Assembly: GCA_000961585.1 (NCBI GenBank)
Contig: LADN01000061.1
Location: 1 to 38,902, forward strand
Source: Peptococcaceae bacterium BRH_c4a
GTDB lineage: Bacteria > Bacillota > Desulfotomaculia > Desulfotomaculales > Desulfocucumaceae
Direction: 5' to 3'
DNA: 38,902 bases
The stretch's first letter is position 1. Each line of letters opens with the position of its first letter. Below the pieces are notes generated by a model that worked only from the letters and a program-made list of their open reading frames with translations, had not been told where the DNA came from and ran no database searches. The position numbers and the translations under genes were made by a program. Shown piece after piece: positions 1,375 through 20,992 of this stretch.

Positions 1375-1399
1375 TAAAAAAGCGCCCTGACGGGCGCTT
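1375..1399 (-). terminator. Rho-independent terminator of the mmc operon
   Basis: A perfect 8-bp stem (AAGCGCCC/GGGCGCTT) with a 4-nt loop is followed, on the minus strand, by a T-rich run (TTTTTTATATA). It lies about 32 nt past the stop codon of the transcarboxylase 5S-type gene and marks the end of the mmc transcript. Confidence 0.85.
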
Positions 1400-1430: not shown

Positions 1431-2780
1431 CTAAGATTTGCTTGCTGCCAGTTTTTGCTTGAGGAATTCAGGCGCCACCTGTGGGAATAATGCTGCCGAG
1501 ACTACATCTTCAGGCTTCTGAATATAGTCTGCAACCAGTTCCCTGGCTTTGGACATTTCGGGCTCGATGAGGTCTGCCGGACGGACTGTGATGGGCGTTT
1601 CGTCGCCTATTATTTTTTTGCGCACCTCTTCGTTAACCGGGGCCGGGGGTCTTCCATAGTAACCGCGCATGTAATTTTTTACCTCGTCGGTGGCGAACAT
1701 ATAGCGTTGTCCTACAATAATATTTATGGCTGCCTGGGTTCCCACAATTTGGCTGGAAGGAGTTACCAGGGGCGGGAAGCCAAAATCTTCCCGGACTCTG
1801 GGCACTTCCGCCAGCACCTGGGGAAGTTTATCCAGGGCATTTTGCTCCTTCAACTGGTTTACAAAGTTTGAGATCATTCCGCCGGGGACCTGATAAAGCA
1901 GGACATTGGTGTCAACGCTGCTGGAGGAACTGTCAAACTGTGTGTAATTCTTTCTGACTTCCTTAATATATTCGGCAATCCTGGACAGTTTTGTGAGGTC
2001 CAGTCCTGTTTCGAAGGGACCCTGCTCCAGGGATGCCACCATGGTTTCAATGGCGGGCTGGGAGGTTTGCAGGGCAAAGGTGGAGATGGCGCAGTCCACA
2101 GCGTCCACACCTGCCTCTATGGCCTTTAAGTACGACATGGAGGCCATGCCGCTGGTATAGTGGGCGTGAAGCTGCACGGGAATATCCAGTCTTTCCTTCC
2201 ATCCTTTTATAATTTCATACGAAATATACGGTGAGAGAATCCCGGCCATATCTTTCAGGCAGATGGAATCGGCGCCGATCTCCTGAAGTTCTCTGGCCAT
2301 CTTCATATAAAAATCAAAATCATGAACAGGGCTTATGGTGTAGACCACGGTGGCCTGAACATGTCCGCCCTCTTTTTTGGCTACCCTCATGGCCTTTTCC
2401 ATGTTACGGACATCGTTTAATGCGTCAAAGATCCGGAAAATATCCATTCCGTTGGCAACGCTGTATTTTATAAACTCTTCCAGCACATCGTCGGCGTAGT
2501 GCTTGTAACCCACAACATTCTGGCTTCTGAGCAGCATCTGGGTCTTTGTCTTTTTAAAGCCCTTTTTAAGTGTTTTCAGGCGCTCCCACGGGTCTTCGTT
2601 AAGAAAACGCATGCAAGAGTCAAATGTTGCCCCTCCCCATACTTCCACCGAATGAAACCCCATGTTATCGATTTCTTCAACTATGGGGAGCATATCAGCA
2701 ATCTTCATTCTTGTGGCCAGCAGAGACTGGTGTCCGTCTCGCAAAGTTGTATCGGTAATGCCTACATGCCTTTTTGTCAT
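1431..2780 (-). CDS. Transcarboxylase 5S-type subunit (pyruvate/oxaloacetate carboxyltransferase)
   Basis: A 449-residue protein of the HMGL-like TIM-barrel family that includes transcarboxylase 5S, oxaloacetate decarboxylase alpha and pyruvate carboxylase subunit B. The N-terminal motif DTTLRDGHQSLLATR (residues 10-24) carries metal and substrate ligands. LKDMAG holds the lysine that is carbamylated in the family (Lys176), and HAH (205-207) gives two metal-ligand histidines. The protein ends after the conserved PYC-OADA region with no MKM biotin-attachment motif, so it needs a separate biotin carrier. In the pathway it moves a carboxyl group between oxaloacetate/pyruvate and carrier-bound biotin, working with the carboxyltransferase encoded at 4166-5698. 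It corresponds to mmcL of Pelotomaculum thermopropionicum by position. A GAAAGGATG ribosome-binding site precedes the ATG. It is the last gene before the operon terminator but is separated from mdh by about 420 bp of repeat DNA. Confidence 0.9.
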   Translation of the reverse strand: MTKRHVGITDTTLRDGHQSLLATRMKIADMLPIVEEIDNMGFHSVEVWGGATFDSCMRFLNEDPWERLKTLKKGFKKTKTQMLLRSQNVVGYKHYADDVLEEFIKYSVANGMDIFRIFDALNDVRNMEKAMRVAKKEGGHVQATVVYTISPVHDFDFYMKMARELQEIGADSICLKDMAGILSPYISYEIIKGWKERLDIPVQLHAHYTSGMASMSYLKAIEAGVDAVDCAISTFALQTSQPAIETMVASLEQGPFETGLDLTKLSRIAEYIKEVRKNYTQFDSSSSSVDTNVLLYQVPGGMISNFVNQLKEQNALDKLPQVLAEVPRVREDFGFPPLVTPSSQIVGTQAAINIIVGQRYMFATDEVKNYMRGYYGRPPAPVNEEVRKKIIGDETPITVRPADLIEPEMSKARELVADYIQKPEDVVSAALFPQVAPEFLKQKLAASKS

Positions 2781-3083: not shown

Positions 3084-3114
3084 GCATGTCGCTTGAGGGT
3101 CATGCTTGCTTTTT

Positions 3115-3178
3115 CTGGATTCTGGCTTCTGGCTCCTGGATTCCGCCGTCTGCAAGACGGCACCGCCCACAAGGCGGT
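3115..3178. repeat. 7-bp tandem repeat plus double hairpin, copy A
   Basis: Four tandem heptads (CTGGATT, CTGGCTT, CTGGCTC, CTGGATT) run directly into two adjacent hairpins, GCCGTC-TGCAA-GACGGC and ACCGCC-CACAA-GGCGGT. On the plus strand the second hairpin is followed by TATTTTATT, so weak terminator activity in that direction is possible. The same block recurs at 38446-38509 with the heptads in a different order. Confidence 0.8.
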
Positions 3179-3201
3179 TATTTTATTATGTCAGGGTTTC
3201 T

Positions 3202-5698
<2,497 letters not shown>

Positions 5699-5712: not shown

Positions 5713-6114
5713 CTATTCTCTTTCACAGAGTTCTATCAAAGTTCCGAAAGTTGATTTCGGATGTAGGAATGCAATCATGGCGCCCCCGGCTCCACGGCGA
5801 GGTTTATCGTCTATAAGCCGGACACCTTTCTCTTTTAACTCCTCAAGCTTTTCCTCAAGGTTATCTACCCTGAAGGCTATATGCTGTATTCCCTCTCCAT
5901 TTTTTTCAATATATCTGGCAATTGGCCCGTCCGGTGTAGTGGACTGCAGCAGTTCAACCTCGCTGTCCCCTGAGGGTAAAAAGGCAACCTTTACCTTCTG
6001 ATCCTCCACCACCTCGGTGTCGGTCACTTTCAGACCCAGTAAATCTTCATATAGCTTGATGGCTTCGGTAATATCCTTTACCGCTATACCTATATGGTCT
6101 ATTTTCTTTATCAC
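5713..6114 (-). CDS. mce: Methylmalonyl-CoA epimerase
   Basis: A 133-residue vicinal-oxygen-chelate protein that interconverts (2S)- and (2R)-methylmalonyl-CoA, linking the carboxyltransferase to the mutase. Two beta-alpha-beta-beta-beta modules are visible. Metal ligands expected for the family are His7 (DHIGIAV), His78 (QHIAF) and Glu128 (LIELCE), with a catalytic glutamate probably in SEVELLQ (residues 51-57). The start is GTG with a GGGGGAGGTG ribosome-binding site 10 nt upstream. It is tightly spaced between the mutase small subunit and the carboxyltransferase and corresponds to mmcH of Pelotomaculum. Confidence 0.94.
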
Positions 6115-6143: not shown

Positions 6144-6542
6144 TCAGCCGTTCAATTTGCCCTTGATATAATCCACAACTGATTTGGTATTGGTTCCGGG
6201 TCCGAATACTTCAACAATGCCTGCCTTTTTCAGCAGAGGAATATCCTCGTCGGGAATTACTCCTCCCCCCAGTACCCAAATATCCCCGGCATTGTTGTTT
6301 TTTAAACCTTTTACCACAGGCGGGAAAAGGTGCAGGTGGGCGCCTGAAAGGCTGCTGAGGGCAACCACATTGACATCCTCTTGAAGGGCGGCTTGAACTA
6401 TCTGTTCGGGAGTTTGCCTCAGGCCGGTATAAATAACCTCCATGCCGGCATCTCTTAATGCCTGGGCAATAACTTTGGCTCCTCTGTCATGTCCGTCCAG
6501 GCCGGGCTTTGCTACCAGCACCCGGATTGGTTTATTGTTCAT
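6144..6542 (-). CDS. Methylmalonyl-CoA mutase, cobalamin-binding subunit
   Basis: A 132-residue stand-alone B12-binding domain. It holds adenosylcobalamin for the mutase through DxHxxG (D16GHDRG21, with His18 as the lower axial cobalt ligand), SLSGAH and a GGG motif around the nucleotide tail. It pairs with the catalytic subunit at 6560-8224; in many bacteria the two are a single chain, and the split form is usual in this clostridial lineage and in archaea. Two in-frame ATG codons lie 6 nt apart. The second is chosen because AGGAGGG then sits 8 nt upstream rather than 2 nt. It corresponds to mmcG by position. Confidence 0.94.
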
Positions 6543-6559
6543 ATTCATAACCCTCCTCT

Positions 6560-8224
6560 CTAAAAAACTATTTGCTGCTTGTATTCACCATAGACCTCAC
6601 GGAGCACGCCGCATATCTCTCCCAGGGTGGCGTAGTTTTTAACGGCCTCTATAAAATACGGCATCAGGTTGTCATTGCCCAGAGCCACCCTGCCCAGCTG
6701 GTTTAGCAATTGTCCGACCTTGTCGTTATCGCGCTGGGATTTGAGTTTGGCCAATTTTTCCACCTGGCGCTCTCCCACGGCAGGATCGACTTTAAGCAGT
6801 CCCTTTGGCCTTTCCGATTCCATAATAAATTTATTAAGGCCTATAACAACTTTTTTATGTTTCTCAATGTCGGTCTGGTAACGATAGGCGCTTTGCTGTA
6901 TTTCTTTTTGCATATACTCTATGGCCTCAGGGGCCCCGCCCATGGAATCAATCTTTTCAATGTACTCCATCGCCTTTTTCTCAATTTCATCGGTCAGGTT
7001 TTCAATCATATATGATCCGCCCAGCGGGTCAACAGTATCGGCTACCCCTATCTCATACCCTATTACCTGTTGTGTGCGCAGGGCGATAAGCACTGAGTCC
7101 TCATTGGGAAGGGCAAGGGCCTCATCCCTGGAATTTGTGTGCAGTGACTGAGTTCCCCCAAGGACGGCGCTGAGGGCCTGGAAGGCAACCCTTATTATAT
7201 TAACGTCAGGCTGCTGGGCGGTAAGTGTGCAGCCCGCCGTCTGGGTATGGAAACGAAGCATCATTGACTTGGGGCTTTTGGCTCCAAATCTTTCTTTCAT
7301 GATTTTAGCCCAGAGCCTGCGGGCGGCCCTAAACTTGGCAATCTCCTCAAGAAAATTAAGGTGGGCATTAAAGAAAAAAGATAGTCTGGGGGCGAAGTCA
7401 TCGACGTTTAACCCGGAGTCCAGGGCGGCCTGGACATAAGCGATACCGTCCGCCAGAGTGAAGGCAATCTCCTGAACCGCTGTGGACCCTGCTTCCCTTA
7501 TGTGATATCCGCTGATGCTGATGGTGTTCCAGTTGGCAATATTCTTTGCACAGTAATCGAAAATATCAGTGATTAGTCTCATGGACTGTGTAGGGGGGAA
7601 AATATAGGTACCCCGGGCTATATATTCTTTGAGAATATCATTCTGAATGGTTCCGTTAAGTTTATCCGGAGTCACTCCCTGTTTTTCAGCCACCGCAATG
7701 TACATTGCCAGAAGTATAGCGGCAGGAGAGTTTATGGTCATGGAAGTGCTGACCTTGTCCAGGGGGATCCCGTTAAAAAGTGTTTCCATGTCAATAATCG
7801 AGTCAATGGCCACTCCTACTTTGCCAACTTCACCCATGGCCAGAGGATGGTCGGAATCAAAACCTATTTGGGTGGGAAGGTCAAAGGCAACAGATAGGCC
7901 GGTTTGTCCCTGATCCAGAAGGTATCTGAAGCGTTTATTGGTTTCCTCGGCGGTGCCGAAACCGGCATACTGCCTCATGGTCCAATGACGGCCCCGATAC
8001 AGGTTGGGCTGAACCCCCCTGGTGTAGGGATATTCGCCGGGAAGGCTAAGATCTATGCCTTCGGTATTTAGATTTGACGGTGTATAAGCTGTTTCAATAT
8101 TTATTCCCGAGTCGGTAATGAATTCTTGCTGCCGTTCGGGGCGTTTTTTAATTTGCTCGTCAAGTTTCTTCTGCCAGACTGATTTTTTTTGTTTTAGAAG
8201 ATTGATTTCATTTTTATCAAACAA
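6560..8224 (-). CDS. Methylmalonyl-CoA mutase, catalytic (large) subunit
   Basis: A 554-residue TIM-barrel subunit that rearranges (R)-methylmalonyl-CoA to succinyl-CoA, using the cobalamin subunit encoded next to it. Family signatures include [22 protein letters not shown], where the substrate-contacting Tyr and Arg lie, and [11 protein letters not shown] with the catalytic His. The C-terminal [16 protein letters not shown] and [10 protein letters not shown] motifs are also present. It ends just where B12-domain fusions would continue, so it is a true split form, not a truncation. The frame is open to an ATG overlapping the end of sucD, but GGGAGGAGG lies 7 nt before a TTG nine codons in, giving the expected N-terminus MFDKNE; the TTG is chosen. 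It corresponds to mmcF. Confidence 0.95.
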
Positions 8225-8252
8225 GAAATTTCCTCCTCCCGTTTCCATGTTT

Positions 8253-9125
8253 TTAAGCTAAATCTATTCTTTCTCTTATAAGGGACGGGACTTCAAATGG
8301 CAGCGCGGCAATAGAAGCTCCTGCCTCCTTCAGCGCCTTTACCTTTCCTTCAAAGGTGCCTTTTCCCCTCTCAATAATTGCTCCGGCGTGTCCCATTCTT
8401 TTTCCGGGAGGGGCGCTCTTCCCCGCTATGTAAGCAACTACCGGCTTGGCCATCTTCTTAATGAATTCTGATGCCTCTTCCTCCTGGTTCCCGCCTATCT
8501 CACCCACCAGAACCACTGCTTTGGTGTAAGGATCTTTATCAAATTTTTCTAATGCGTCCACGAAGGACATTCCCACCACCCGGTCTCCGCCAAGCCCGAG
8601 CACTGTTGACTGGCCAATTCCGCTGGCGGTGAGATTACCCACTATTTCATAGGTGAGGGTTCCGCTTCGGGCCACAATCCCAACCGGCCCGGGAATGAAG
8701 AACTGGTTTGGAGGAATACCCACCTTGCACTTCCCAGATGATACAATTCCGAAGGTATTTGGCCCGATTACCGTTGTTCCTTTTTGCCGGGCGAAATTAA
8801 CTATTTCCATCTCGTCGTGAAGAGGTATGTGTTCTGTGATCACCACCACCACCTTTACACCGGCTTCAATGGCTTCAAATGCCGCGTCCCTGGCAAAGGG
8901 GGCAGGTATAAAAAGGCATGAGGCGTCAACTCTCTGGTCCTCCACGGCTGCAGAGACGGTGTCATAGATCTTTAATCCGTCAAGTTCCTGTCCTCCCTTG
9001 CCGGGGGATATTCCTCCCACCACTTTGGTGCCGTAGGCCAGCATTTGCCTGGTATGGAATTTGCCCTGATTTCCAGTGGCCCCCTGAACTATAACATTGG
9101 TGTTTTCATCAATTATTATCGCCAT
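8253..9125 (-). CDS. sucD: Succinyl-CoA synthetase alpha subunit
   Basis: A 290-residue ADP/GDP-forming succinyl-CoA synthetase alpha subunit, converting succinyl-CoA to succinate with substrate-level phosphorylation, the only such step within this pathway. CoA-binding motif [12 protein letters not shown] (10-21), GPNTFGI (121-127) and the phosphohistidine His246 in KRMGHAGAI are intact, and length is normal. It follows sucC by 25 nt and its stop is 4 nt before an upstream ATG of the mutase frame, so translation is probably coupled. It corresponds to mmcE by position. Confidence 0.95.
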
Positions 9126-9150: not shown

Positions 9151-10263
9151 TTAACGGGCCAGCTCCACAGCCTTGGCCGCAGCTTCGTGCATCATTTTGT
9201 AAGCCTCGAAACCATTTTCTTGCAGTATTTTCACGCCCAGCTCTTCGTTCGTTCCCACAAGGCGAATTATAACGGGAACTGGTATATCCCTTTCATTTTT
9301 CACCTGAACCAGGGCATTGGCCACATCGTCACAGCGGGTTATTCCGCCGAAAATATTAATAAGTATTACCCTGGGTTTCCTTGATAAAAGAATTTCCAGC
9401 GCCATGGCGGTTCCTTCTTTTCCGGTTCCGCCCCCGGCATCCAGGAAATTGGCCGCCTTCCCTCCGTAATGCTGGATAATATCCAGGGTTCCCATAGTGA
9501 TGCCGGCCCCATTGGCCATAACAGCTATATTCCCGTCCAGTTGCACGTATGAAAGGCCAATGGCATGGGCTTTTTGCTCTGCCTCGGTTCTTTCCTCCAC
9601 ATGGGGCACGTCCTTTTGACGGAACAAGGCCTCGTCATCGATGGTTACCTTGGCGTCGGCTGCAATTAACCTGTCGCCACTTATAACCAGCGGGTTTATC
9701 TCAACCAGTTCAGCTTCCTTTTCCTTAAAAACTTTATAAAGAAGGAGCAAAAGCCGGTTAAATTCCTTGCCAATACCTCCCGCAAGGCCCATGCGCCGGG
9801 ATATTTCCCTGGCTGCATAGGCCTGGAGGCCATGAAAAACATCTATATGGTACTTTACTATGTTTTCTTCGGGCACTTCCTCAATGTCCATTCCTCCGCT
9901 GGCCGAAGCAATTAACACAGGCTTTTTGGCGGATCCGTCGATGGTTATGGCAAGGTAAAGCTCTTTATCTATTTTTATTTTTTCTTCAACCAGCACCGAT
10001 TCCACCACCAGTCCCTGAACAGTGCCGCCAAGAATTTTTGAGGCGGCTTCTCCTGCCTGTTTCGGGGTTGAGGCAAACAGGATACCGCCACCTTTGCCCC
10101 TCTTGCCGGATAGGATTTGAGATTTGACCACCACTTCTCCGCCTATTTCCTTAGCTGCCGATACGGCTTCTTCGGGTGTGGATACCATCCTTCCCCGGGG
10201 CACATCAACCCCATAACGGGAGAAAAGATCCTTCCCCATGTACTCAAACAGCTTCAAATCCAT
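9151..10263 (-). CDS. sucC: Succinyl-CoA synthetase beta subunit
   Basis: A 370-residue ATP-grasp and ligase-CoA protein, partner of SucD. It starts with the typical KLFEYMGKDLFSRYGVDVPRG. Residues VVVKSQILSGKRGKGGGI are the nucleotide-binding lysine region. ELVEINPLVI carries the magnesium ligands. GNIAVMANGAGITMGTLDII and FLDAGGGTGKEG are C-terminal CoA-ligase motifs. AAGGAG lies 3-8 nt ahead of the ATG. The gene sits between fumarase beta and sucD with short gaps and corresponds to mmcD. Nucleotide specificity (ATP or GTP) cannot be read with confidence. Confidence 0.94.
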   Translation of the reverse strand: MDLKLFEYMGKDLFSRYGVDVPRGRMVSTPEEAVSAAKEIGGEVVVKSQILSGKRGKGGGILFASTPKQAGEAASKILGGTVQGLVVESVLVEEKIKIDKELYLAITIDGSAKKPVLIASASGGMDIEEVPEENIVKYHIDVFHGLQAYAAREISRRMGLAGGIGKEFNRLLLLLYKVFKEKEAELVEINPLVISGDRLIAADAKVTIDDEALFRQKDVPHVEERTEAEQKAHAIGLSYVQLDGNIAVMANGAGITMGTLDIIQHYGGKAANFLDAGGGTGKEGTAMALEILLSRKPRVILINIFGGITRCDDVANALVQVKNERDIPVPVIIRLVGTNEELGVKILQENGFEAYKMMHEAAAKAVELAR

Positions 10264-10285: not shown

Positions 10286-10840
10286 TTATTTTATGGCATA
10301 TATTTTAAGCCCTTCTTCGTAAAGGTCTCCTCCCAGTGAGTCATTAATCACTATGACCGGAAAATCCTCCACATAAAGTTTGCGTATGGCCTCGGGGCCC
10401 AGTTCTGGATAGGCGATTACGTCGCAACTTTTGATGCACCTGGAAATCAGTGCCGCAGCACCGCCCACGGCTGCAAAATAAACCGCTTTGTATTGTTTGA
10501 TGGCTTTTATAACCTCTGGTGTTCTCTTCCCTTTTCCGATCATGCCCTTTAATCCCAGCGCCAGCAGCCTGGGGGTATAGACATCCATCCTGCTGGCTGT
10601 TGTGGGTCCGGCTGAACCTATGATTTGTCCGGGTTTTGCCGGGGAAGGACCCACATAATAAATAATCTGGCCCTTAAGATCAATGGGAAGAGGCTTGCCC
10701 TGATCCAGCAGTTCCACCATTTTTTTGTGGGCAGTGTCTCTGCCGGTGTAGATGGCGCCGTTTAAAAGCACTTTCTGACCTATTCTCAAGTTCTCAATAA
10801 TTTCATCATTTAAGGGGGTTGTTAACTTAATTGGTGGCAA
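10286..10840 (-). CDS. Fumarate hydratase class I, beta (C-terminal) subunit
   Basis: A 184-residue C-terminal domain of the iron-sulfur class I fumarases, which hydrates fumarate to malate together with the alpha subunit upstream. Characteristic motifs are LLNGAIYTGRDTAHKK near residues 25-41, YYVGPSPAKPGQIIGSAGPTTASRMD in the middle and the lysine-rich GKGKRTPEV. Length is normal for split two-subunit fumarases. The start is TTG, preceded by GGGAGGTGA at a 7-nt distance, 20 nt after the alpha stop codon. It corresponds to mmcC. Confidence 0.93.
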   Translation of the reverse strand: MPPIKLTTPLNDEIIENLRIGQKVLLNGAIYTGRDTAHKKMVELLDQGKPLPIDLKGQIIYYVGPSPAKPGQIIGSAGPTTASRMDVYTPRLLALGLKGMIGKGKRTPEVIKAIKQYKAVYFAAVGGAAALISRCIKSCDVIAYPELGPEAIRKLYVEDFPVIVINDSLGGDLYEEGLKIYAIK

Positions 10841-10860: not shown

Positions 10861-11712
10861 TTAAAGAATGGCCTCTTTGTGGCGCGCCGCATGACAGTTG
10901 ATATTCACTGCCACTGGCAGGGTGGCTATGTGGCAGGGGTAAATTTCCACATGAACGGCCAAGGCTGTTGTTCTTCCGCCAAGGCCCTGCGGGCCGATAC
11001 CCAGGCTGTTTATCTCATCCAGCAGTTCTATTTCCAGGGATGCTATGTCAGGAATATCACTGGGTTTGCCCAATTCCCGGAGGAGGGCTTCCTTGGCCAG
11101 GGCGGCGCACTTCTCAAAGGTCCCGCCTATCCCCACACCAACAATTAGGGGAGGGCAGGGGTTAGGTCCGGCAAGCTTTATGGTTTCAATAATAAATTTT
11201 TTTACGCCCTCAACACCTTCAGAAGGCTTTAACATCCTGAGGGCGCTCATGTTTTCGCTTCCCCCGCCCTTTGGAGCCACCGTAATTTTAATGTTTTCGC
11301 CATCAACAATCTTGGCGTGAATAACAGCCGGTGTATTGTCTCTGGTATTTTTCCTTCTGAGGGGATGCTCCACAATTGATTTGCGTAGATATCCCTCAAT
11401 ATAACCTTTTCTTACACCCTCGTTGACGGCATCATATAGGTTGCCTCCGGTAATTCTGACATCCTGACCGATTTCCAGAAATATAACCGCAAATCCTGTA
11501 TCCTGGCATATTGGAATCCGATCTTCAGCAGCTATTTTGGCATTTAAAATCAGTTGCTTTAAGGCATCTTTGCCTGCTTGAGAGATCTCCATTTCCTGCT
11601 TTTCATGAAAGGATTTCAGAACGTCGGACCTGAGGTAATAGTTTGCCTCCATACATAAACGGGACACGGTTTCGACTATTTCTAAGACAGTTACTGTTTT
11701 TATACTTTGCAC
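10861..11712 (-). CDS. Fumarate hydratase class I, alpha (N-terminal) subunit
   Basis: A 283-residue alpha subunit of a two-subunit, oxygen-sensitive [4Fe-4S] fumarase. Cluster cysteines are visible in PICQDTG, NPCPP and FEKCAAL. RKNTRDNTPAVIH and KGGGSENMS are the substrate-side motifs. The frame stays open to 11829, but that extension lies upstream of the sigma-54 promoter and is not protein-like. Two starts are possible. GTG at 11712 has AGAGG 9 nt upstream. An ATA at 11703-11701 aligns with the normal Met of the family (reading MKTVTVLEIV) and has a textbook GGGAGGTG 6 nt upstream. The GTG is used here as the conventional choice. It is the first gene of the mmc operon (mmcB). Confidence 0.9.
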   Translation of the reverse strand: MQSIKTVTVLEIVETVSRLCMEANYYLRSDVLKSFHEKQEMEISQAGKDALKQLILNAKIAAEDRIPICQDTGFAVIFLEIGQDVRITGGNLYDAVNEGVRKGYIEGYLRKSIVEHPLRRKNTRDNTPAVIHAKIVDGENIKITVAPKGGGSENMSALRMLKPSEGVEGVKKFIIETIKLAGPNPCPPLIVGVGIGGTFEKCAALAKEALLRELGKPSDIPDIASLEIELLDEINSLGIGPQGLGGRTTALAVHVEIYPCHIATLPVAVNINCHAARHKEAIL

Positions 11713-11741
11713 CTCCCGCAACCTCTGTTGTCCAAAAAATA

Positions 11742-11757
11742 AGCAAATTTTGTGCCA
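11742..11757 (-). promoter_or_regulatory. Sigma-54 (-24/-12) promoter of the mmc operon
   Basis: On the minus strand the sequence reads TGGCAC-AAAAT-TTGCT, an exact match to the sigma-54 consensus TGGCAC-N5-TTGCW with correct GG-GC spacing. The predicted start site is near 11731, about 20-30 nt ahead of the fumarase alpha start. The neighbouring regulator is a sigma-54 activator with an intact GAFTGA loop. Confidence 0.85.
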
Positions 11758-11810: not shown

Positions 11811-11828
11811 TGAAGTAATAATATTTCA
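11811..11828 (-). promoter_or_regulatory. Candidate activator-binding palindrome
   Basis: An imperfect 18-bp palindrome (TGAAGTAATAATATTTCA) centred about 89 bp upstream of the predicted sigma-54 start site, a usual distance for an enhancer bound by an NtrC-type activator. AT-rich palindromes arise by chance, so this is tentative. Confidence 0.3.
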
Positions 11829-11880: not shown

Positions 11881-11909
11881 AAAAAGAAAAACCCCTTGAA
11901 ATAAAGGGG
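11881..11909 (-). terminator. Terminator of the sigma-54 activator gene
   Basis: On the minus strand CCCCTT-TATTTC-AAGGGG is followed by TTTTTCTTTTT. It lies between the activator gene and the mmc promoter, so the regulator is not co-transcribed with the operon it probably controls. Confidence 0.8.
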
Positions 11910-11970
11910 ATCCTGCTTGGCTTAAAAAGATGTTCTAAATAGTAGAAGCAATCTAAAATTTATAATTATC

Positions 11971-13674
11971 CTAATCCATTTGATTTTCCGGTCGATTCTT
12001 TTTCAGTTTGTTGTAGAGGGTGGCCAGTGAAATATTAAGCGCCTGGGCTGCCCGTCTTTTGCCTTCAACGGTGTTCCCGAACTTTATGATGGCTTTTTTT
12101 ATCAGAATCTGTTCCATGTGGTCAATGGGCATTATATCCATATCCTTGTCCGGGGTATTTTTAAGCTGGCTTATATGCTGCATGAGGTTCTTTTTGGTGA
12201 TTATCTCTTCATCTGCAGTAACCATAACCCTTTCGATTACGTTCTCCAGTTCCCGTACATTTCCCGGCCAGTCATAGTTGCATAAGGCCTCTTCAGCGTC
12301 TTTAAGCAGGCCCTTAACTTTTTTCCCCAGTTTCCTGTTAAGTTTTATAATCAGATTGTTGCTTAACATAGACAGGTCTTCCTTGTGATACCGCAGGGAC
12401 GGTATGGTGATCTCAACCACGTTTAGTCTGTAATAAAGGTCTTCTCTGAAGCTGCCCTGCCGTATAAGCTCCCTCAGGTTTCTGTTGGTGGCCGCTATGA
12501 CCCTGACATCAACCTTTATAGTCTGGTTACCGCCCACCCTTTCGAATTCCATCTCCTGCAGAACTCTTAAAAATTTTCCTTGAAGGTTCAAGCTCATATC
12601 GCCAATTTCGTCAAGGAAAATAGTGCCTCCGTGAGCCAGTTCGAATTTTCCTATTCTCGACTTGACGGCTCCTGTAAAAGCCCCCTTGACATAGCCGAAA
12701 AATTCACTTTCCAAAAGATTTTCGGGAATGGCGGCACAGTTTACCTTTATAAAAGGTTTTTCCCTCCTTGGGCTGGCATGGTGAATGGCGTGAGCAAACA
12801 GCTCTTTGCCGGTGCCGCTTTCACCCAGCAGGAGGACGGTGGAGTTGGATCTGGCCGACCTTTCAGCCAACTGGATACACTTTCTGAGATCATGGCTGGT
12901 TCCTAAAATATCACTAAAGGTATATTTGCTGGTGGTCACCTGACCCAATTTTTCGGAAAGATTTTCTATCATGGATGTTCTTTGCTGAAGCTCATCCATT
13001 AGCTTCAGTATATCTGTCAGGTGCTGAAAAACCACAACCCCCCCGGCTATAGCGCCATCCACATAGATGGGAGCCGCATTGGAGACTACCTCTGAATTGC
13101 TTCCGCCCACCTTTGTTTTGTGGCCAAATATATTTTTGCCGGTTTTGAGAACTATGGCCAGGGCGCCGTCGGGTGAAGCCTCAAATATGTTCTTGCCTAT
13201 TCTTTCGTGTTCGGGAATTCCGGTTACTCTGGTAAAAGACGGGTTTACATATTTGATGGTACCTTCTTTGTCAGCCACCTCAATTGCTTCATGGACTGAG
13301 TTGAGTATAATGGTAAGCTTGCTTTGAATTCTTTTAAATTCCTGCAGTTTTTTATTTTCTTTCAGCAAAGAGGTGATCAGGTCTACCATCCTGAAATCAA
13401 TCAGTGAGGTTCCCGGTCTTATAAACCGGCATACTTTTTCTTTTAGGAATGAGGCCTCCTGCGACAGTATAACTATATCGATATTGTCGTATCCATCATT
13501 ATTTTCCGGCAAGCCTGTAACGGGAATATGAGTTTTAAGGTTGCCAGCCGGAGCCCATTCTTTATCGCTTGCGTATACAGCGACAATTTCAATTTGCGGA
13601 ACTGATCGGATCATCCTGTAGACTGTCTGGACATCTTCACCGATTCCCACTATGGCAACCTTTAATCTCTGCAT
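11971..13674 (-). CDS. Sigma-54-dependent transcriptional activator of the mmc operon
   Basis: A 567-residue bacterial enhancer-binding protein. Residues 1-105 form an alpha/beta domain that begins like a dinucleotide-binding fold ([12 protein letters not shown], 6-17). A PAS domain spans about 115-220, a short coiled coil about 222-245, and the AAA+ domain about 252-490. The AAA+ part has Walker A GESGTGKE (284-291), the sigma-54-contacting GAFTGA (331-336) and Walker B TIFLDE (351-356). A Fis-type helix-turn-helix ends the protein ([20 protein letters not shown]). There is no receiver domain, so it should sense a ligand directly. It starts with ATG behind AGGTGA. Position, terminator and the sigma-54 promoter immediately downstream make it the likely mmc activator (mmcA in Pelotomaculum). 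The ligand is unknown. Confidence 0.9.
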
Positions 13675-13695: not shown

Positions 13696-13724
13696 ATTAT
13701 TACATTTGACTTTGAATTCGACAA
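13696..13724 (-). promoter_or_regulatory. Sigma-A-type promoter for the sigma-54 activator
   Basis: TTGTCG, a 17-bp spacer and AATAAT (with an extended TGT before it) precede the activator gene by about 20 bp on the minus strand. Confidence 0.5.
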
Positions 13725-14521: not shown

Positions 14522-15805
14522 TTATCTATGCATCAGTTCCCTGGGGATGTAGGTGGATATGCCGGGCCAGAGGACAAACAATATCAGCGCCAATACCAGG
14601 ACCAGGATAAAGGGCAAGACACCTCTCACCACTTCCTCCAGTTTTTCCCTGGCCATCGCGCTTACCACAAAAAGGTTCAGCCCCACCGGAGGAGTAATCA
14701 TGGCCAGTTCCATGTTTACCGTCATTACCACCGCAAACTGGACGATATCAATATCCAGGGCGTATATTATCGGAAGCAGGAGAGGCAGGGTTATCAGGGT
14801 GATGGACACCGCTTCCAGGAATGTTCCCATTACGAAAAACATCAGGTTTGTTAAAGCGAAAAACAGGTATTTATTCAGCGTGTTATCGGCTATCCAGGCA
14901 GCCACCGACTGGGGGACCTGCTTGGCGGTGAGGAAAAGGGAAAATAACATGGCGGCGGATATGATCAGGTAAATCATTGAGGATATGTTGATGGACTCCC
15001 GCAGTATTTGCCGCACGCTGGAAAGTTTCAGCTCTTTGTAAATGAATATGGACACCGCCACTGTATAGAACACTGAAAGAACTGCGGCTTCGGTGGGTGT
15101 TACCACTCCGGCGTAAATACTCCCTAGGATGAAGAAAGGAAGTAAACCGCCCGGTATTGCCTTGACGGTGGTTTTTACCCGCTCATCCCAGGTGGCCTTG
15201 GGCGCCCGTCCATAATTGTTTTTCAGGGCATTAAGCACCGCTATGGCAATGAGGATTAGGGCCAGGAATATTCCGGGCAGTAATCCGCCCATAAAAAGAT
15301 CGCCTATGGAAACCTCTGCTGTTATGCCGAATATTACCATGGTTACGCTGGGAGGTATCAGTATGCCCAGGGTACCAGCTGCTGCTATAAGGCCCATGGC
15401 ATACCTCTTGGGGTATCCGCCCTCGATAAGGGCCGGAAGCATAATGGCTCCTATGGCGGCCGCCGTGGCGGGACTGGAGCCTGATATGGCGGCAAAAATT
15501 GAGCAGGCTGCGATGGTAACCACAGCCAGGCCTCCGGGGAGATGGCCGAACCAGGCCTTGAGGCAGGCTATGAGATATTTGGATATTCCGCCGTAGGACA
15601 TTACCACGCCTGCAAACACAAAGGCAGGGATTGCCAGCAAGGGAGGTGAAAGCAGGGCCGCAAACATGCGCTGGGCCATCATGTACAGGGTAAAGTCTGT
15701 GGTGGCGGCCAAAACCACCAGGGCGGCAATGGCAAGGCTTATGGCAATTGGCACGTTAATCAGGAACAAGCCTACGAATATAAGGAAAAGCACAACCGTT
15801 TCCAT
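14522..15805 (-). CDS. dctM: TRAP transporter large permease (DctM)
   Basis: A 427-residue integral membrane protein with about 12 hydrophobic segments, the ion-translocating large subunit of a tripartite ATP-independent periplasmic transporter. The signature region FAAISGSSPATAAAIGAIMLPAL and the GTLGILIPPSVTMVIFG motif are clear. Its ATG overlaps the dctQ stop by one base (TAATG), implying coupled translation. With DctQ and the solute-binding proteins upstream it probably imports a C4-dicarboxylate or related organic anion, which would suit an organism whose catabolism runs through succinate, fumarate and malate. The substrate is not proven by sequence. Confidence 0.94.
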   Translation of the reverse strand: METVVLFLIFVGLFLINVPIAISLAIAALVVLAATTDFTLYMMAQRMFAALLSPPLLAIPAFVFAGVVMSYGGISKYLIACLKAWFGHLPGGLAVVTIAACSIFAAISGSSPATAAAIGAIMLPALIEGGYPKRYAMGLIAAAGTLGILIPPSVTMVIFGITAEVSIGDLFMGGLLPGIFLALILIAIAVLNALKNNYGRAPKATWDERVKTTVKAIPGGLLPFFILGSIYAGVVTPTEAAVLSVFYTVAVSIFIYKELKLSSVRQILRESINISSMIYLIISAAMLFSLFLTAKQVPQSVAAWIADNTLNKYLFFALTNLMFFVMGTFLEAVSITLITLPLLLPIIYALDIDIVQFAVVMTVNMELAMITPPVGLNLFVVSAMAREKLEEVVRGVLPFILVLVLALILFVLWPGISTYIPRELMHR

Positions 15806-16317
15806 TAATGATGCCCCCCTTCGGCCTCTTCCTCAAGCCAGTCCTGTCCCCCATTTTTGATAAGCAGGTATATCTTTTCAATAAAACGGGCTCCCAGCAG
15901 GAGTCCGCTGAGGGGCATGATAAGGTTTACTATCCAGAGGGGGAACTGGCTGTCGGCGGATCGCTGGCCGGAAATAATATAGTTGTTTACCAGTTGATAA
16001 CCGAAATAGGTGTAAAATACTGTGAAGGCCAGTCCTATTGTGTTGGAAAAGATGCTTACAATTCTCTTGGTCTTAATGCTGAAAGAGTTGTACAGTATAT
16101 CCACCTTGATATGATGGTTGTTTCTCAGAGCCACCGCAGTCCCGGCCAGTATTCCCCATACCACGAAATATACCGAGAATTCATCAAGAATTGATTTGGG
16201 GTTTCCGAAGAAGTATCTCAGTACCACGTTGATAAAAATGAGGGTTAAGCCTATAACAAGCATAAGTCCCGAGAAATAGTCCTCCAGGGCGGAGTATATG
16301 TCTTTAAAATTTTTCAA
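15805..16317 (-). CDS. dctQ: TRAP transporter small permease (DctQ)
   Basis: A 170-residue membrane protein with four predicted transmembrane helices, small subunit of the TRAP transporter. The family motif NVVLRYFFGNP lies after the first helix, and DEFSVYFVVWGILAGTAVALRNNHHIKVDIL covers the second. The frame is open 24 codons upstream, but AAAGGGG lies 8 nt before the TTG chosen here (giving MKNFKDIYSALED). The first ATG in that extension has no ribosome-binding site. It lies between dctP and dctM in the usual P-Q-M order. Confidence 0.9.
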   Translation of the reverse strand: MKNFKDIYSALEDYFSGLMLVIGLTLIFINVVLRYFFGNPKSILDEFSVYFVVWGILAGTAVALRNNHHIKVDILYNSFSIKTKRIVSIFSNTIGLAFTVFYTYFGYQLVNNYIISGQRSADSQFPLWIVNLIMPLSGLLLGARFIEKIYLLIKNGGQDWLEEEAEGGHH

Positions 16318-16394
16318 TGTCCCAGCCCCTTTCTCCATGGCAGTCAAATTTTGATCAGGGGTGGCGGGGGATCTTGGGACCCCCGCCACATAAA

Positions 16395-17417
16395 TTACTT
16401 GCTGTTCCTGGCGGCTTCAATATAGTCTTTTCCGATGACATCGGCATATTTTGCGTAAACCGGTTCCATGGCCTTCTCAAAGGCTGTCCGGTCGGCGTCG
16501 GTGAGGGTGTATATTTCCATTTTGCCGCTGCTCTTAAGTTTTTCAAAGCTCTTATTATTCAGGTCGTCGGCCAGTTTTCTTTCAAACAGGCTGGCTTCAG
16601 TCATAGCTGCGGTGAATATCTTCTGCTGATCGGGAGTGAGGCTTTCCCAGAATTTTGTATTGGTGATGACCACATAGTCCAGCCTGCCGTGACTGGAAAT
16701 AGTCATGTATTTTTGTACTTCACTGTATTTCTGGGTGTCTATGTTGTTGAAGGTGTTCTCCTGACCGTCAACCGCCTTGCTGTTCAGTGCCTGATAGACC
16801 TCTCCGAAGGCCATGGTCTGGGAACCTGCTCCCAGGGCCTTAAACTGTTCGTCCAGGACTCCGCCGCTCTGGGTGCGGAACTTCATCCCTTTAACATCGG
16901 CGGGGGTTTTCAGCGGGCGCTTGGAGTTGGTAAGGTGTTTGGAACCGTTGGGCCACCATCCCAGTCCCAGCATTCCGTGGGACTTCAGGGTATTCATCAG
17001 TTGCTGTCCTTTGGGGCCGTCGTAGAAGTTGTAGGCCGCCTGGTCGCTCTTAAAGAGGAAAGGCATATCCACAAGCTGGAAGGCAGGTACAAATCCCACC
17101 AATTTGGTTACCGACGGGGCGATAAGCTGAACGTTATTTGCCTTCAGGGCTTCCAGTTCTTCCTTGTCTCCGTATAGCTGAGAGGACGGGAAAATCTGCA
17201 CCTCAAACTGTCCTGACTTTTCGAGGATTTCTTTAAATTTTAAGGCTGCCTGTCCCTTGGGAGTGCCTTCGGCCACAACGTGGGAAAATTTTACGCTTAT
17301 TTTTTTGCCGGTATCGGCCTTCTTAGTGTCCGACGCTCCGCCGCAGCCGGCGGCGGTTGCCACCATAATTGCGCCCAACAGGAAAAACAGAGTCCTTTTC
17401 ACAAGACATTTGGTCAT
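16395..17417 (-). CDS. dctP: TRAP transporter solute-binding lipoprotein (DctP), first copy
   Basis: A 340-residue extracytoplasmic substrate-binding protein. The N-terminus is a lipoprotein signal: charged MTKCLVKR, a hydrophobic core and the lipobox TAAGC with Cys25 as the lipid anchor. FSHVVAEGTPKG, the MKFRTQS segment (conserved Arg that salt-bridges a carboxylate) and VDGQENTFNN are TRAP DctP hallmarks. GGGGGG lies 7 nt before the ATG. It directly precedes dctQM and is probably the transport receptor. The Arg supports an organic acid ligand. Confidence 0.94.
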   Translation of the reverse strand: MTKCLVKRTLFFLLGAIMVATAAGCGGASDTKKADTGKKISVKFSHVVAEGTPKGQAALKFKEILEKSGQFEVQIFPSSQLYGDKEELEALKANNVQLIAPSVTKLVGFVPAFQLVDMPFLFKSDQAAYNFYDGPKGQQLMNTLKSHGMLGLGWWPNGSKHLTNSKRPLKTPADVKGMKFRTQSGGVLDEQFKALGAGSQTMAFGEVYQALNSKAVDGQENTFNNIDTQKYSEVQKYMTISSHGRLDYVVITNTKFWESLTPDQQKIFTAAMTEASLFERKLADDLNNKSFEKLKSSGKMEIYTLTDADRTAFEKAMEPVYAKYADVIGKDYIEAARNSK

Positions 17418-17499
17418 TAGTCAGCCCCCCTTTAATTTTTAGCATATTAAGACAATTGGAAAACTTTTTAATCCACACCCCCTATCTTAATTTTTGACA

Positions 17500-18537
17500 T
17501 TACCTGGACCGGTTTTTTATTTCATTAGAAAACTGAGGTCCAACTATATCGTTTAGTTTATTTTCAAGCCCGGATAAAGCTTTTTTCCACTCCGCCTTTT
17601 CTTCAGGGCTCTGGATATGGATGGTCACTTTTCCCGACTCTTTTAGTATTGTCATATCCCTTTCGTTAATGACTCTGGCCTGTTCCCTCTCCCATTCGGT
17701 TACCTCGTTCATGGATTCTTCAATTATCGCCCGTATATCCGGCGGAAGCTGGGTCCAGAATTTATTATCGGTCATCACAACATATCCCAGAAAGCCGTGG
17801 TTGCTCACCGTCAGATATGGCTGTACCTCGTGAAACCTCTGGGTGACTATGTTTGACATGGTATTTTCCTGACCGTCAATTGTTTGTGCAGAAAGGGCGG
17901 AATACACCTCGTTAAATTTAAGCTGAACCGGTTTTGCCCCCAGAAGTCTGAACTGTTCTTCCAGTATGGTGCTGTTTATCATTGTCCTGAACTTAAGCCC
18001 CTTTAGGTCCTCAGGGTATTTCAGGGGTTTTATGCGGTTCGTAATTTGCTTGAAGTCGTTATCCCAAAAAGCCAGGGGATGTATTCCACCCTTTTCGAGG
18101 TCTCCGTAAAGGGTATGGCCAATGCTGCCTCTCATGGCACTGTGAATATCATTGGTATCCTCAAAGAAGTAGGGCATGTCAAATAATTGCCAGCGTGGAA
18201 AAAGATCGCTGAGTTTGGAGGTGGAGGGTGCTATTAAATGTACCGCCCCACTGCGGAGCGCCTGTATTTCCTCACCATCTGCGTAAAGGCTGGAATTGGG
18301 GAATACCTGAATCTCCACCCTGCCTCCGGTTCTTTTTTCCACCAGTGCGGCAAATTTTCTGGCGGCCAGTCCTTTGGGCGTTTCTTCCGCCACCACGTGT
18401 GAAAATTTCAATACAATTTTTTCACCCGGGGTAACCTGTTCGTAGTCCATAATCTTCTTATTGCATCCGGACATCAAGGAAAGAATTACTAAAACACATA
18501 AAAAATGTAGGATTCTCTGCGACAATATCATCTGCAT
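17500..18537 (-). CDS. DctP-family solute-binding lipoprotein, second copy
   Basis: A 345-residue paralogue of the neighbouring DctP, with lipobox LMSGC. It shares FSHVVAEETPKG, LKFRTM with the carboxylate-binding Arg, and IDGQENTMSNI. Clear divergence from the first copy shows it is not a recent duplication. Only one dctQM pair is present, and this copy lies between the transporter and the two-component genes. It may be a second receptor with different specificity or an accessory binding protein that presents ligand to the sensor kinase (inference). The start is ATG with AGGTAGGGA just upstream. Confidence 0.9.
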   Translation of the reverse strand: MQMILSQRILHFLCVLVILSLMSGCNKKIMDYEQVTPGEKIVLKFSHVVAEETPKGLAARKFAALVEKRTGGRVEIQVFPNSSLYADGEEIQALRSGAVHLIAPSTSKLSDLFPRWQLFDMPYFFEDTNDIHSAMRGSIGHTLYGDLEKGGIHPLAFWDNDFKQITNRIKPLKYPEDLKGLKFRTMINSTILEEQFRLLGAKPVQLKFNEVYSALSAQTIDGQENTMSNIVTQRFHEVQPYLTVSNHGFLGYVVMTDNKFWTQLPPDIRAIIEESMNEVTEWEREQARVINERDMTILKESGKVTIHIQSPEEKAEWKKALSGLENKLNDIVGPQFSNEIKNRSR

Positions 18538-18682
18538 TTCCCTACCTGTCCATCATATAGAATTCCTGATTAGGTTGGTACTTTATTGTGTATTCTAATA
18601 TTTCAAAAATTTTTTCTGTATTTAGTATTCTATAGCAACCACCACTGAGAGGCAACATTCAAGGATGTTTTGGTCTTTTTGT

Positions 18683-19372
18683 TCATGAAATTTTATATTT
18701 TTTAATCGGTCTTCCCACCGATCCATACTGTAGGTCTACGCTCACCCTGCCAATGATGTCCAGGTATTCCAGGTATCTTCTGGCGGTTACCCGGGCAAGT
18801 CCCAGCCCTTCGGCCACTTCCTCAGCCGACATGGCATAGGGGGTTTTGAGCATAAACAGAAGCACCTGTTTCATGGTCAGGTCGTTCAGTCCTTTGGGTA
18901 TATCCGCCATTCCTTCTTCTTCGCCCATGGTCAGGCGCCGGCTATTTTTTAAATGATCGATTTCCTGCTGGCTTAACGAGTCCATGCTGTCAAGTTTCAT
19001 GCGCATCATGTTATAAGACTCAAGGGCTATTTTTAGTCTTTGAAATTTGAAGGGCTTCAATATGTAGTCAACGGCCCCGTACCTGAAAGCGCGCTCTATG
19101 GTTTCAGTATCGTGGGCGGCGGTAAGAAGGATGGCATCGGTGGGAATATTAATCCTTCTGAGTTCCTGAAGCAGTGACAGACCGTCCTGATCGGGCAGGT
19201 AAACATCTATCAGGGCTAGATCCGGCATTTGCACAGTGGTTTTGGCAATTCCTTCGGCGGCGGTTCCGGCGGTATCCACTACGGCAAACCCCGGGACTGA
19301 ATTGACAAAGGTTTTGTTTATCCCGGCCACCATTGGGTCATCTTCTATTATTATGACTTTTATTGGTTTCAA
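18683..19372 (-). CDS. CitB/DctR-type response regulator
   Basis: A 229-residue response regulator. The receiver domain has acidic Asp11 and Asp12, phosphoacceptor Asp56 (LIDVYLP), the LLTAAHD threonine and the ILKPFKF lysine. A linker is followed by a C-terminal winged-helix/HTH, MSAEEVAEGLGLARVTARRYLEYL, as in the CitB, DcuR and MalR group. It starts with TTG overlapping the kinase stop codon (TTGA), with GAGGTGAT just upstream, so the pair is translationally coupled. Likely targets are the adjacent dctP genes. Confidence 0.93.
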   Translation of the reverse strand: MKPIKVIIIEDDPMVAGINKTFVNSVPGFAVVDTAGTAAEGIAKTTVQMPDLALIDVYLPDQDGLSLLQELRRINIPTDAILLTAAHDTETIERAFRYGAVDYILKPFKFQRLKIALESYNMMRMKLDSMDSLSQQEIDHLKNSRRLTMGEEEGMADIPKGLNDLTMKQVLLFMLKTPYAMSAEEVAEGLGLARVTARRYLEYLDIIGRVSVDLQYGSVGRPIKKYKIS

Positions 19373-20988
19373 AAGTCATCACCTCTTTGTTCATCCGTCC
19401 GGTTGGGAATAGTTATCGTAAATCTGGTTCCCTGGCCTGAAGAGCTGTCAACACAGATTGAACCTCCGGCCGCCAGCACGTGTTCCTTGACAATGTATAG
19501 TCCCAGTCCATGCCCCTCCTCCTCCTTTGTGCTGAAGCCGTTATCAAATATCCGATCTCGTATCTCTTCAGGGATGCCCGGACCTGAATCCTCCACAGTT
19601 ATCTTCAGCCCCCCTCCCTTGTCGGAAACCGAGAAATATATTTTTTTAGGGAATGAATGGTATTTTTTAAGGGCTTCTATGGCATTTTCCAGGATGTTTC
19701 CGATTATCACCACCAGGGCATTGCTGTCAACCTTGTCCGGAAGCCTGGCAAGGCTGGAGTTGTTGTCAATGATCATATCGGCCCGTATCTCCTTGGCCCT
19801 GCCGTATTTACCCAGGATGAGGCCGGCCAGGCTGTTGTCTTTGATCCTTCTGGTTAAAAAGGATGTGATATTCTTCTGTTCTTCGGTTACATTGAATACG
19901 TAATCCATTGCGTCATGGTACTTTTTAAGCTGTATTAATCCGGCAATGGTGTGAAGCCTGTTCAGGTGTTCGTGGTTTTGCACCCTCAAGGCTTCCACAA
20001 AAGCCTTCACGCCAGTCAGTTCCTCGGCAAGGCGGTGGATCTCGGTCCGGTCTCTGAAGGTGGCCACTGCCCCCACCACCTGTCCCTTTACCCGGACGGG
20101 AATACGGTTACTTATTATTACTGTGTTATTTATTACCTTTTCCTGGTTAAATTCTGGTTCGCCGTTTTCCAGAACCCTGGGAAGATTGCTGTTTTTCAAT
20201 ACATTCCGGATTGATTTTCCAATCAGTTTGTCGGTGGTTCCCAGTATTTTCTTTGCTGCCTCATTGGCAACAGTTATTTTGTATTCACTGTCGATTGCTA
20301 TAATGCCTTCACCCAGGGCCTGAAAAATGGCTGTTCTCTCTTCCAGAAGCCGGGCTATTTCCGCCGGTTCCATCTTGAACAGGGCTTCTTTTATCCTGCC
20401 GGCAAGGAAAATGGATCCAAGGAACCCTAATACGGAGCACAAAAACAATACCGAGTATACCTCAAACCGGATTGATTTATATATGCCGGAAAAGGTGGGG
20501 GTCAGTATGCCTACCACCACAACCCCCACCTGTCTTGTCCCTTCATCAGCCTTTATGGGAACAAAGGCCCTTACCGACGGTCCCAAAACACCTTTTGCCG
20601 ATGAAACGCTTTCCTGGTCAGATAGTGAGGGGAAAATATCTTCCCCGGTAAAACGCTTTCCAATGCGGTCGGCCACAGGGTGTGAATATCTTATGCCATC
20701 CATGTTGACCACCACTATATATTCCGCCCCTGTGGCAACCCGTGTTTTTTCTGCGATGGGCTGTATTTTCAGCCAACCCTGGCTGTTTTGCACATTTTCC
20801 TGTATTAAAGGCGTTTGGGCCATGGTTCTGGCAATGGCCAGCGCCCTTTTTCCCATCTCATCTTCCATGATGGCGGCTATCTTGTTGACCATTACCGACC
20901 CGCCCACCAGTATCACCAGAAGGACAGAGCAAAAAGACAGTATTATTATTTTTGTGCTTAGTTTGTAGTTTCTGCCGGTCTTAATCAT
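19369..20988 (-). CDS. CitA/DcuS-type sensor histidine kinase
   Basis: A 540-residue membrane sensor kinase. The order is: transmembrane segment 12-34, extracellular PDC/PAS-like sensor domain with RYSHPVADRIGKRF, the citrate/C4-dicarboxylate sensor motif, transmembrane segment about 176-196, cytoplasmic PAS domain about 221-313, dimerisation box with phosphoacceptor His339 (NHEHLNRLHTI), and an ATPase domain with NILENAIEAL, DSGPGIP and GHGLGLYIV. This architecture matches kinases that sense citrate, fumarate or malate outside the cell. The frame is open 37 codons further into the upstream gene; the ATG after that gene's stop is chosen, with GGAGG about 12 nt upstream. It probably controls the dct transporter. 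Confidence 0.93.
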   Translation of the reverse strand: MIKTGRNYKLSTKIIILSFCSVLLVILVGGSVMVNKIAAIMEDEMGKRALAIARTMAQTPLIQENVQNSQGWLKIQPIAEKTRVATGAEYIVVVNMDGIRYSHPVADRIGKRFTGEDIFPSLSDQESVSSAKGVLGPSVRAFVPIKADEGTRQVGVVVVGILTPTFSGIYKSIRFEVYSVLFLCSVLGFLGSIFLAGRIKEALFKMEPAEIARLLEERTAIFQALGEGIIAIDSEYKITVANEAAKKILGTTDKLIGKSIRNVLKNSNLPRVLENGEPEFNQEKVINNTVIISNRIPVRVKGQVVGAVATFRDRTEIHRLAEELTGVKAFVEALRVQNHEHLNRLHTIAGLIQLKKYHDAMDYVFNVTEEQKNITSFLTRRIKDNSLAGLILGKYGRAKEIRADMIIDNNSSLARLPDKVDSNALVVIIGNILENAIEALKKYHSFPKKIYFSVSDKGGGLKITVEDSGPGIPEEIRDRIFDNGFSTKEEEGHGLGLYIVKEHVLAAGGSICVDSSSGQGTRFTITIPNRTDEQRGDDF

Positions 20989-20992
20989 TACT

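Follow-up and report, generated by a model that had tools for sequence, protein, structure and literature searches.

Propionate-oxidising syntrophs make their living close to the thermodynamic limit, and to our knowledge the way in which their central pathway is switched on at the level of DNA is largely undescribed. The locus discussed here raises the question of which promoter and which regulator govern the methylmalonyl-CoA pathway operon. It lies in a stretch of 38,902 nucleotides (the window; contig LADN01000061.1) from Peptococcaceae bacterium BRH_c4a. Comparison with orthologous loci makes it highly likely that this operon, in which fumAB comes first, has a sigma-54 promoter worked by the neighbouring activator via an array of TTCTAAA-N-TTTAGAA sites. 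The features of the locus are collected in Table 1.

Table 1. Features of the promoter region, the activator gene and the operon, in positions of the window
Feature	Position	Strand	Basis and remarks
Strong terminator after the 5S-like gene	1380..1399	-	Probable end of the cluster
5S/pyruvate carboxylase B-like (oadA-like) subunit	1431..2780	-	Preceded by a 421-nt gap; co-transcription uncertain
Malate dehydrogenase	3202..4185	-	Pfam
Carboxyl transferase subunit, methylmalonyl-CoA carboxyltransferase type	4166..5698	-	Pfam
Methylmalonyl-CoA epimerase (glyoxalase family)	5713..6114	-	Pfam; name inferred from place and family
Methylmalonyl-CoA mutase, B12-binding subunit	6144..6548	-	Pfam
Methylmalonyl-CoA mutase, large subunit	6560..8248	-	Pfam
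Succinyl-CoA synthetase, alpha subunit	8253..9125	-	Pfam
Succinyl-CoA synthetase, beta subunit	9151..10263	-	Pfam
fumB (mmcC), fumarase beta subunit	10286..10840	-	Pfam PF05683
fumA (mmcB), class I fumarase alpha subunit, first gene	10861..11703	-	Pfam PF05681, NCBIfam NF004885
Probable fumA start codon, AUA	11701..11703	-	Aligned with orthologous starts; AUU/AUA/AUC in 46/55 loci
Shine-Dalgarno sequence of fumA, GGGAGGTG	11710..11717	-	8 nt between GGGAGG and the start codon
Predicted transcription start (+1)	11731..11731	-	Inferred from -12 at 11743; 28-nt leader to the AUA codon
Sigma-54 -24/-12 element, TGGCACAAAATTTGCT	11742..11757	-	Exact sequence; kept in 54/55 orthologous loci
UAS4, TTATAAAATTTTGAA	11825..11839	-	12/14; 37 bp from UAS3, same as in relatives
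UAS3, TTCGAAAACGTGGAA	11862..11876	-	Weak, 10/14; relatives have good copies here
Intrinsic terminator of the activator gene	11892..11909	-	CCCCTT-loop-AAGGGG-TTTTTC; between UAS2 and UAS3
UAS2, TTCTACTATTTAGAA	11933..11947	-	12/14; 18 bp from UAS1, spacing repeated in relatives
UAS1, TTATAAATTTTAGAT	11951..11965	-	12/14; just past the activator stop codon; de novo motif and shuffles; re-found genome-wide
mmcA-type sigma-54 activator (bEBP), 567 aa	11971..13674	-	N-terminal Rossmann, PAS, AAA+ with GAFTGA, Fis-type HTH; Pfam and orthologue alignment
Sigma-70-like promoter of the activator gene	13696..13724	-	9/12, extended -10; consensus match only
UAS-like copy, TTATATTTTTTAGAA	13740..13754	-	11/14; lexA-activator gap, about 80 nt before the activator start; no sigma-54 element

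A preliminary description of this DNA had read TGGCAC-AAAAT-TTGCT as an exact -24/-12 consensus. The reading holds on the minus strand (11757..11742), directly downstream of an intact activator gene, where GG at -25/-24 and GC at -13/-12 are separated by N10, the correct spacing. The genome carries one copy of rpoN (PF04552, E 7.4e-61), in keeping with sigma-54-dependent transcription. The sequence match alone is weak evidence, because a pattern search of the 3.49 Mb genome with TGGCACNNNNNTTGCW returned 4 matches as compared with 2 for the reversed control, counts that would be compatible with chance similarity; sigma-54 activator genes are found near three of the four matches. We also note that many other activator genes of this genome (L004-L026) have TGGCAT/TGGCAC-N5-TTGC elements nearby, a large uncharted sigma-54 network.

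That the element is real therefore follows from its conservation and not from the number of genomic matches. The strict form TGGYAY-N5-TTGC occurs in 22 of the 25 orthologous activator-fumA gaps that formed the first set, against 10 strict matches per 10,000 dinucleotide shuffles of the same gaps (0.001 per shuffled locus). When the comparison is widened to 55 distinct loci from one order, GG-N10-GC of the TGGCAC-N5-TTGC consensus is present at the expected place in 53, with the strict form in 50. It is invariant in all 53 aligned elements, and over these divergent gaps the unchanged positions are G-25, G-24, A-22, T-15, T-14, G-13 and C-12. Locus L090 carries the element 132 nt before the start codon and brings the total to 54/55; L183 has kept TGGCAT and lost the -12 part. 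The loci carrying the element include that of Pelotomaculum sp. UBA3102 (L089), so the test named in the preliminary description, conservation upstream of mmcB homologues in Pelotomaculum and its relatives, came out in favour of the promoter, and the probability of a chance similarity is vanishingly small. Judged by its conservation, 11742-11757 is a genuine sigma-54 promoter with a dedicated activator, ordinary in kind. The +1 of the fumA-first operon is predicted at 11731, in agreement with the preliminary description, and the predicted leaders among the relatives mostly measure 26-58 nt.

Two further loci depart from the common arrangement. In L056 (G024), activator and fumA are 14 nt apart with neither sigma-54 element nor operator between them, and the regulation seems to have been rewired. 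L181 (G007:C30) contains, from position 2386 onward, a second activator copy and a perfect sigma-54 element, followed by a truncated fumA with an ATG start; this second copy is possibly a duplicate in decay, or else the contig is a contaminant.

The activator gene has the makeup of a bacterial enhancer-binding protein (bEBP). Its AAA+ domain is recognised by Pfam PF00158 with an E value of 1.4e-74. Across 16 orthologues no change is seen in Walker A, GAFTGA, Walker B (FLDEIGD) or the recognition helix. The Fis-type HTH scores 21.2 in Pfam, just below the cut-off of 22, yet it is invariant among the orthologues. In nearly all of the loci examined, fumAB comes directly downstream of the activator gene, whose other neighbour is a divergent lexA; this agrees with the earlier proposal of a dedicated activator adjoining the promoter. 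The same proposal had given the activator gene a terminator and a promoter of its own; the terminator is present (11909-11892), while the promoter amounts to a sigma-70-like 9/12 match. Among NCBIfam models PrdR is the nearest, at 455 bits against a cut-off of 795; PrpR scores 298 against 499, and neither equivalog assignment applies.

A further feature of the protein, passed over in the preliminary description, is a Rossmann domain at the N-terminus of a sigma-54 activator (residues 1-122, window 13309-13674). A profile comparison relates residues 2-95 to the NAD-binding domain of acylating acetaldehyde dehydrogenase (1nvm, E 1.3e-5), and the predicted model (pLDDT 80) matches the fold of NAD(P)-dependent dehydrogenases and of the redox sensor Rex. 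Some orthologues retain an intact glycine motif, while in others, among them the protein of the window, it is eroded, and orthologues of family f11 are devoid of the domain. It is possible that the activator senses redox or acyl-CoA state through this domain. A literature search for prior reports of Rossmann-type sigma-54 activators returned nothing pertinent.

The gaps upstream of the element were searched de novo for palindromes by expectation-maximisation. The best palindrome, TTCTAAA-N-TTTAGAA, was far better than any of even width. The 25 loci contain 35 sites that match at 12 or more of the 14 positions, as compared with 0.33 expected; of 139 permuted half-sites tried as controls, the best gave 2 sites. 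In the relatives of the window's organism the array begins just past the stop codon of the activator gene with two sites spaced by 18 bp and continues, about 64-71 bp further on, with two more sites 37-38 bp apart, whereas other families have two sites about 49-55 bp apart. The sites of the window start at -108, -216 and -234, with the weak one at -145, all within the 80-250 bp range of upstream activator sites; at the position of this weak UAS3, loci L032, L037, L038 and L041 have copies of 12-13/14. The TTCTAAANTTTAGAA sites are candidate operators of the neighbouring activator. The operator had previously been sought in a palindrome at 11811-11828 (about -89), which is unconserved and overlaps UAS4 by only 4 nt. 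It was rejected in favour of the conserved motif, which stands elsewhere in 3-4 copies.

The position of UAS4 also bears on the possibility that the operon is driven mainly by a sigma-70/sigma-A promoter at about 11846-11818, the -24/-12 element being a minor or second promoter. A TTGCCT-17-TATTAT sequence is found there, with comparable sites at the same distance in L032 and L033, and the 2006 Pelotomaculum paper is said to mention, in its abstract, multiple promoter sequences and a regulator. Much of the conservation of this site is explained by its overlap with UAS4. The best sigma-70 scores of 53 gaps average 8.39, as compared with 8.22 in shuffles, which amounts to no enrichment. The idea of a general sigma-70 promoter in this gap was dropped for that reason, whereas the sigma-54 core is invariant in the same gaps. 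A leading role for sigma-70 is therefore very unlikely, although the sigma-70-like site common to L031-L033 at -115/-105/-116, overlapping UAS4, could be a second promoter in this species.

It may also be asked whether a real sigma-54 promoter at this place is controlled by another activator while the neighbour regulates something else, given that the genome encodes 27 full-length sigma-54 activator domains. Across the order, in which 55 of 113 genomes have the activator, its gene, the operator array and the promoter stay together; the recognition helix is as invariant as the operator. A UAS-like copy precedes the activator gene itself. Pattern searches of the window's genome and 12 relatives, which weak sites would escape, found the operator at no other sigma-54 promoter. 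Control by a different activator is on these grounds quite improbable, and the neighbouring activator looks like a local, dedicated regulator. In the same 13 genomes the operator counts are close to those of the reversed control. The strongest matches away from the locus, in three genomes, have unrelated genes beside them and no sigma-54 elements nearby. A larger regulon was rejected on account of these counts and the lack of a second sigma-54-linked target.

The gap between lexA and the activator gene contains a copy with at least 11/14 matches in 44 of 51 cases, as compared with 4.0 expected, and a sigma-54 element in none of 55 loci. An operator-like copy in such a setting suggests autoregulation of the activator gene.

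The extent of the operon is narrower than was first described. From fumA to malate dehydrogenase, nine genes follow one another with spacings of at most 29 nt or with overlaps. The earlier count of nine enzyme subunits plus malate dehydrogenase is reached only with the 5S/oadA-like gene, which sits past a 421-nt gap. Likewise, the switch that had been assigned to the whole central catabolic pathway is retained here for the mmc operon. The wider statement, of one all-or-none switch for the entire pathway, goes too far, because the genes of CoA transferase and succinate dehydrogenase are outside the cluster with no visible link to it. The gap between the malate dehydrogenase and 5S-like genes (about 3100-3190) contains a repeat, GAATCCAGGAGCCAGAAGCCAGAATCCAG, with a GC-rich hairpin; the same is seen in L180 and near infC, which identifies it as a dispersed repeat. 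Beside the mmc cluster, at 14522-21099 of the window, lie apparent genes of a TRAP transporter, coding for two binding proteins and for the small and the large membrane subunit, together with a sensor kinase and a response regulator. The TRAP-like genes possibly serve the uptake of C4 acids or propionate.

Alignment of the orthologous starts reveals an unusual beginning of fumA, which probably starts at AUA in the window and at AUU, AUA or AUC in 46 of 55 loci. Over the 55 loci the start codons are AUU in 34, AUA in 10, AUC in 2, UUG in 8, GUG in 1 and AUG in none, and the 8-nt Shine-Dalgarno spacing of the window is the commonest among relatives. On the tree the third base has changed at least nine times within AUU/AUA/AUC and never to AUG inside the 55-locus set, and the class of start codon has changed only twice, to UUG/GUG in family f8 and to AUG in Thermincola. 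Since AUG is one step from AUU, AUA and AUC and yet absent, the pattern points to selection against an AUG start. Among class I fumarases fetched by sequence, a few of which are from the same clade, ATG occupies the start position in 57 of 79 scored loci, and the truncated second copy of fumA in L181 also starts with ATG.

It could be argued that the non-AUG start is an artefact of alignment or annotation and that the true start is a nearby GTG, ATG or TTG; an in-frame GTG is present at 11712-11710 in the window, and a few relatives have an in-frame ATG or GTG within a few codons of the fumA start. The GTG of the window, however, overlaps the Shine-Dalgarno sequence, and in 33 of the 46 AUU/AUA/AUC loci the stretch between codons -8 and +11 is free of in-frame ATG, GTG and TTG. 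In-frame stops occur shortly upstream of the start in many loci. Applied to the same loci, the procedure recovers canonical starts with a Shine-Dalgarno sequence for fumB (52/52) and the activator (44/46); lexA was discarded as a control because its annotated N-terminus is unconserved. An artefact is accordingly unlikely.

With a conserved non-NUG codon behind a strong Shine-Dalgarno sequence, the head of fumA resembles genes under IF3 control, and infC of the same genome starts with ATT. IF3-type translational control of fumA is plausible by this analogy. A structured leader around the start codon received no support (z 0.15 and 0.80), and a literature search for an AUU start in fumarase returned nothing pertinent.

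The proposed circuit would operate as follows. Sigma-54 RNA polymerase would wait at 11742-11757 as a closed complex, while the mmcA-type bEBP would bind upstream, at a distance of about 95 to 235 bp, to the 3-4 copies of TTCTAAA-N-TTTAGAA. A metabolic signal, putatively perceived through the PAS and/or the Rossmann domain, would lead the activator to open the closed complex with ATP, and the activator may control its own gene as well. From the resulting transcript fumA would be translated from AUA (mostly AUU in relatives) behind the strong Shine-Dalgarno sequence, where IF3 may add a translational brake. The element and its conservation, the operator array, the intact activator, rpoN, the operon layout and the start-codon pattern are seen in the sequences themselves, whereas operator binding, activation, the signal, the start of the transcript and IF3 control are predictions. 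A bolder version, in which the operon head is gated twice, by a sigma-54 activator reading redox or acyl-CoA state via its Rossmann domain and by an IF3-dependent AUU/AUA/AUC start of fumarase, is offered tentatively, as less likely than not.

The gene order is similar, with the regulator first, in the mmc cluster of Pelotomaculum thermopropionicum (PTH_1356-1369) and in Desulfotomaculum gibsoniae/kuznetsovii, and the Pelotomaculum loci (L089, and L048 as a probable further one) share with the window the -24/-12 element and the non-AUG fumA start. The published mmc descriptions compared here, apart from the primary 2006 and 2008 Pelotomaculum papers, cover the cluster and its expression and mention no sigma-54 promoter, operator or start codon. 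Clostridial sigma-54 regulons such as PrdR-prd likewise place a dedicated bEBP beside a catabolic operon, with upstream operators and a -24/-12 promoter (Nie et al. 2019, PMC6615313); the regulon table of that study has 39 bEBP groups, and neither fumarase nor the methylmalonyl-CoA pathway is a target of any of them. In enterobacteria, PrpR is also a sigma-54 activator of a propionate operon, there for catabolism by way of 2-methylcitrate. It differs in the pathway and in having a PrpR_N domain, in contrast to the Rossmann plus PAS arrangement of the window's activator. As regards translation, infC with its AUU autoregulation and Streptomyces sigR, which has a GTC start and is repressed by IF3 (PMC5472188), resemble fumA in their conserved non-NUG start and the strong Shine-Dalgarno sequence that precedes it; unlike these, fumA encodes a metabolic enzyme and heads an operon, and repression by IF3 is putative here.

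To what had been described for this DNA, the present analysis adds an operator motif, a narrower extent of the switch and a fumA start at a conserved codon other than AUG. A specific circuit of activator, operator sequence and promoter is thereby proposed that would be valid for much of a bacterial order, and its probable limits can be named, there being no sign of CoA transferase or succinate dehydrogenase in the regulon. Gene callers restricted to ATG, GTG and TTG probably misplace the start of fumA. If the AUU-type start is confirmed, fumarase would be a rare metabolic enzyme under translational control of the infC/sigR type, and if the double gating is true, fumarase, and hence the flux through the pathway, would be tied to the state of the translation machinery.
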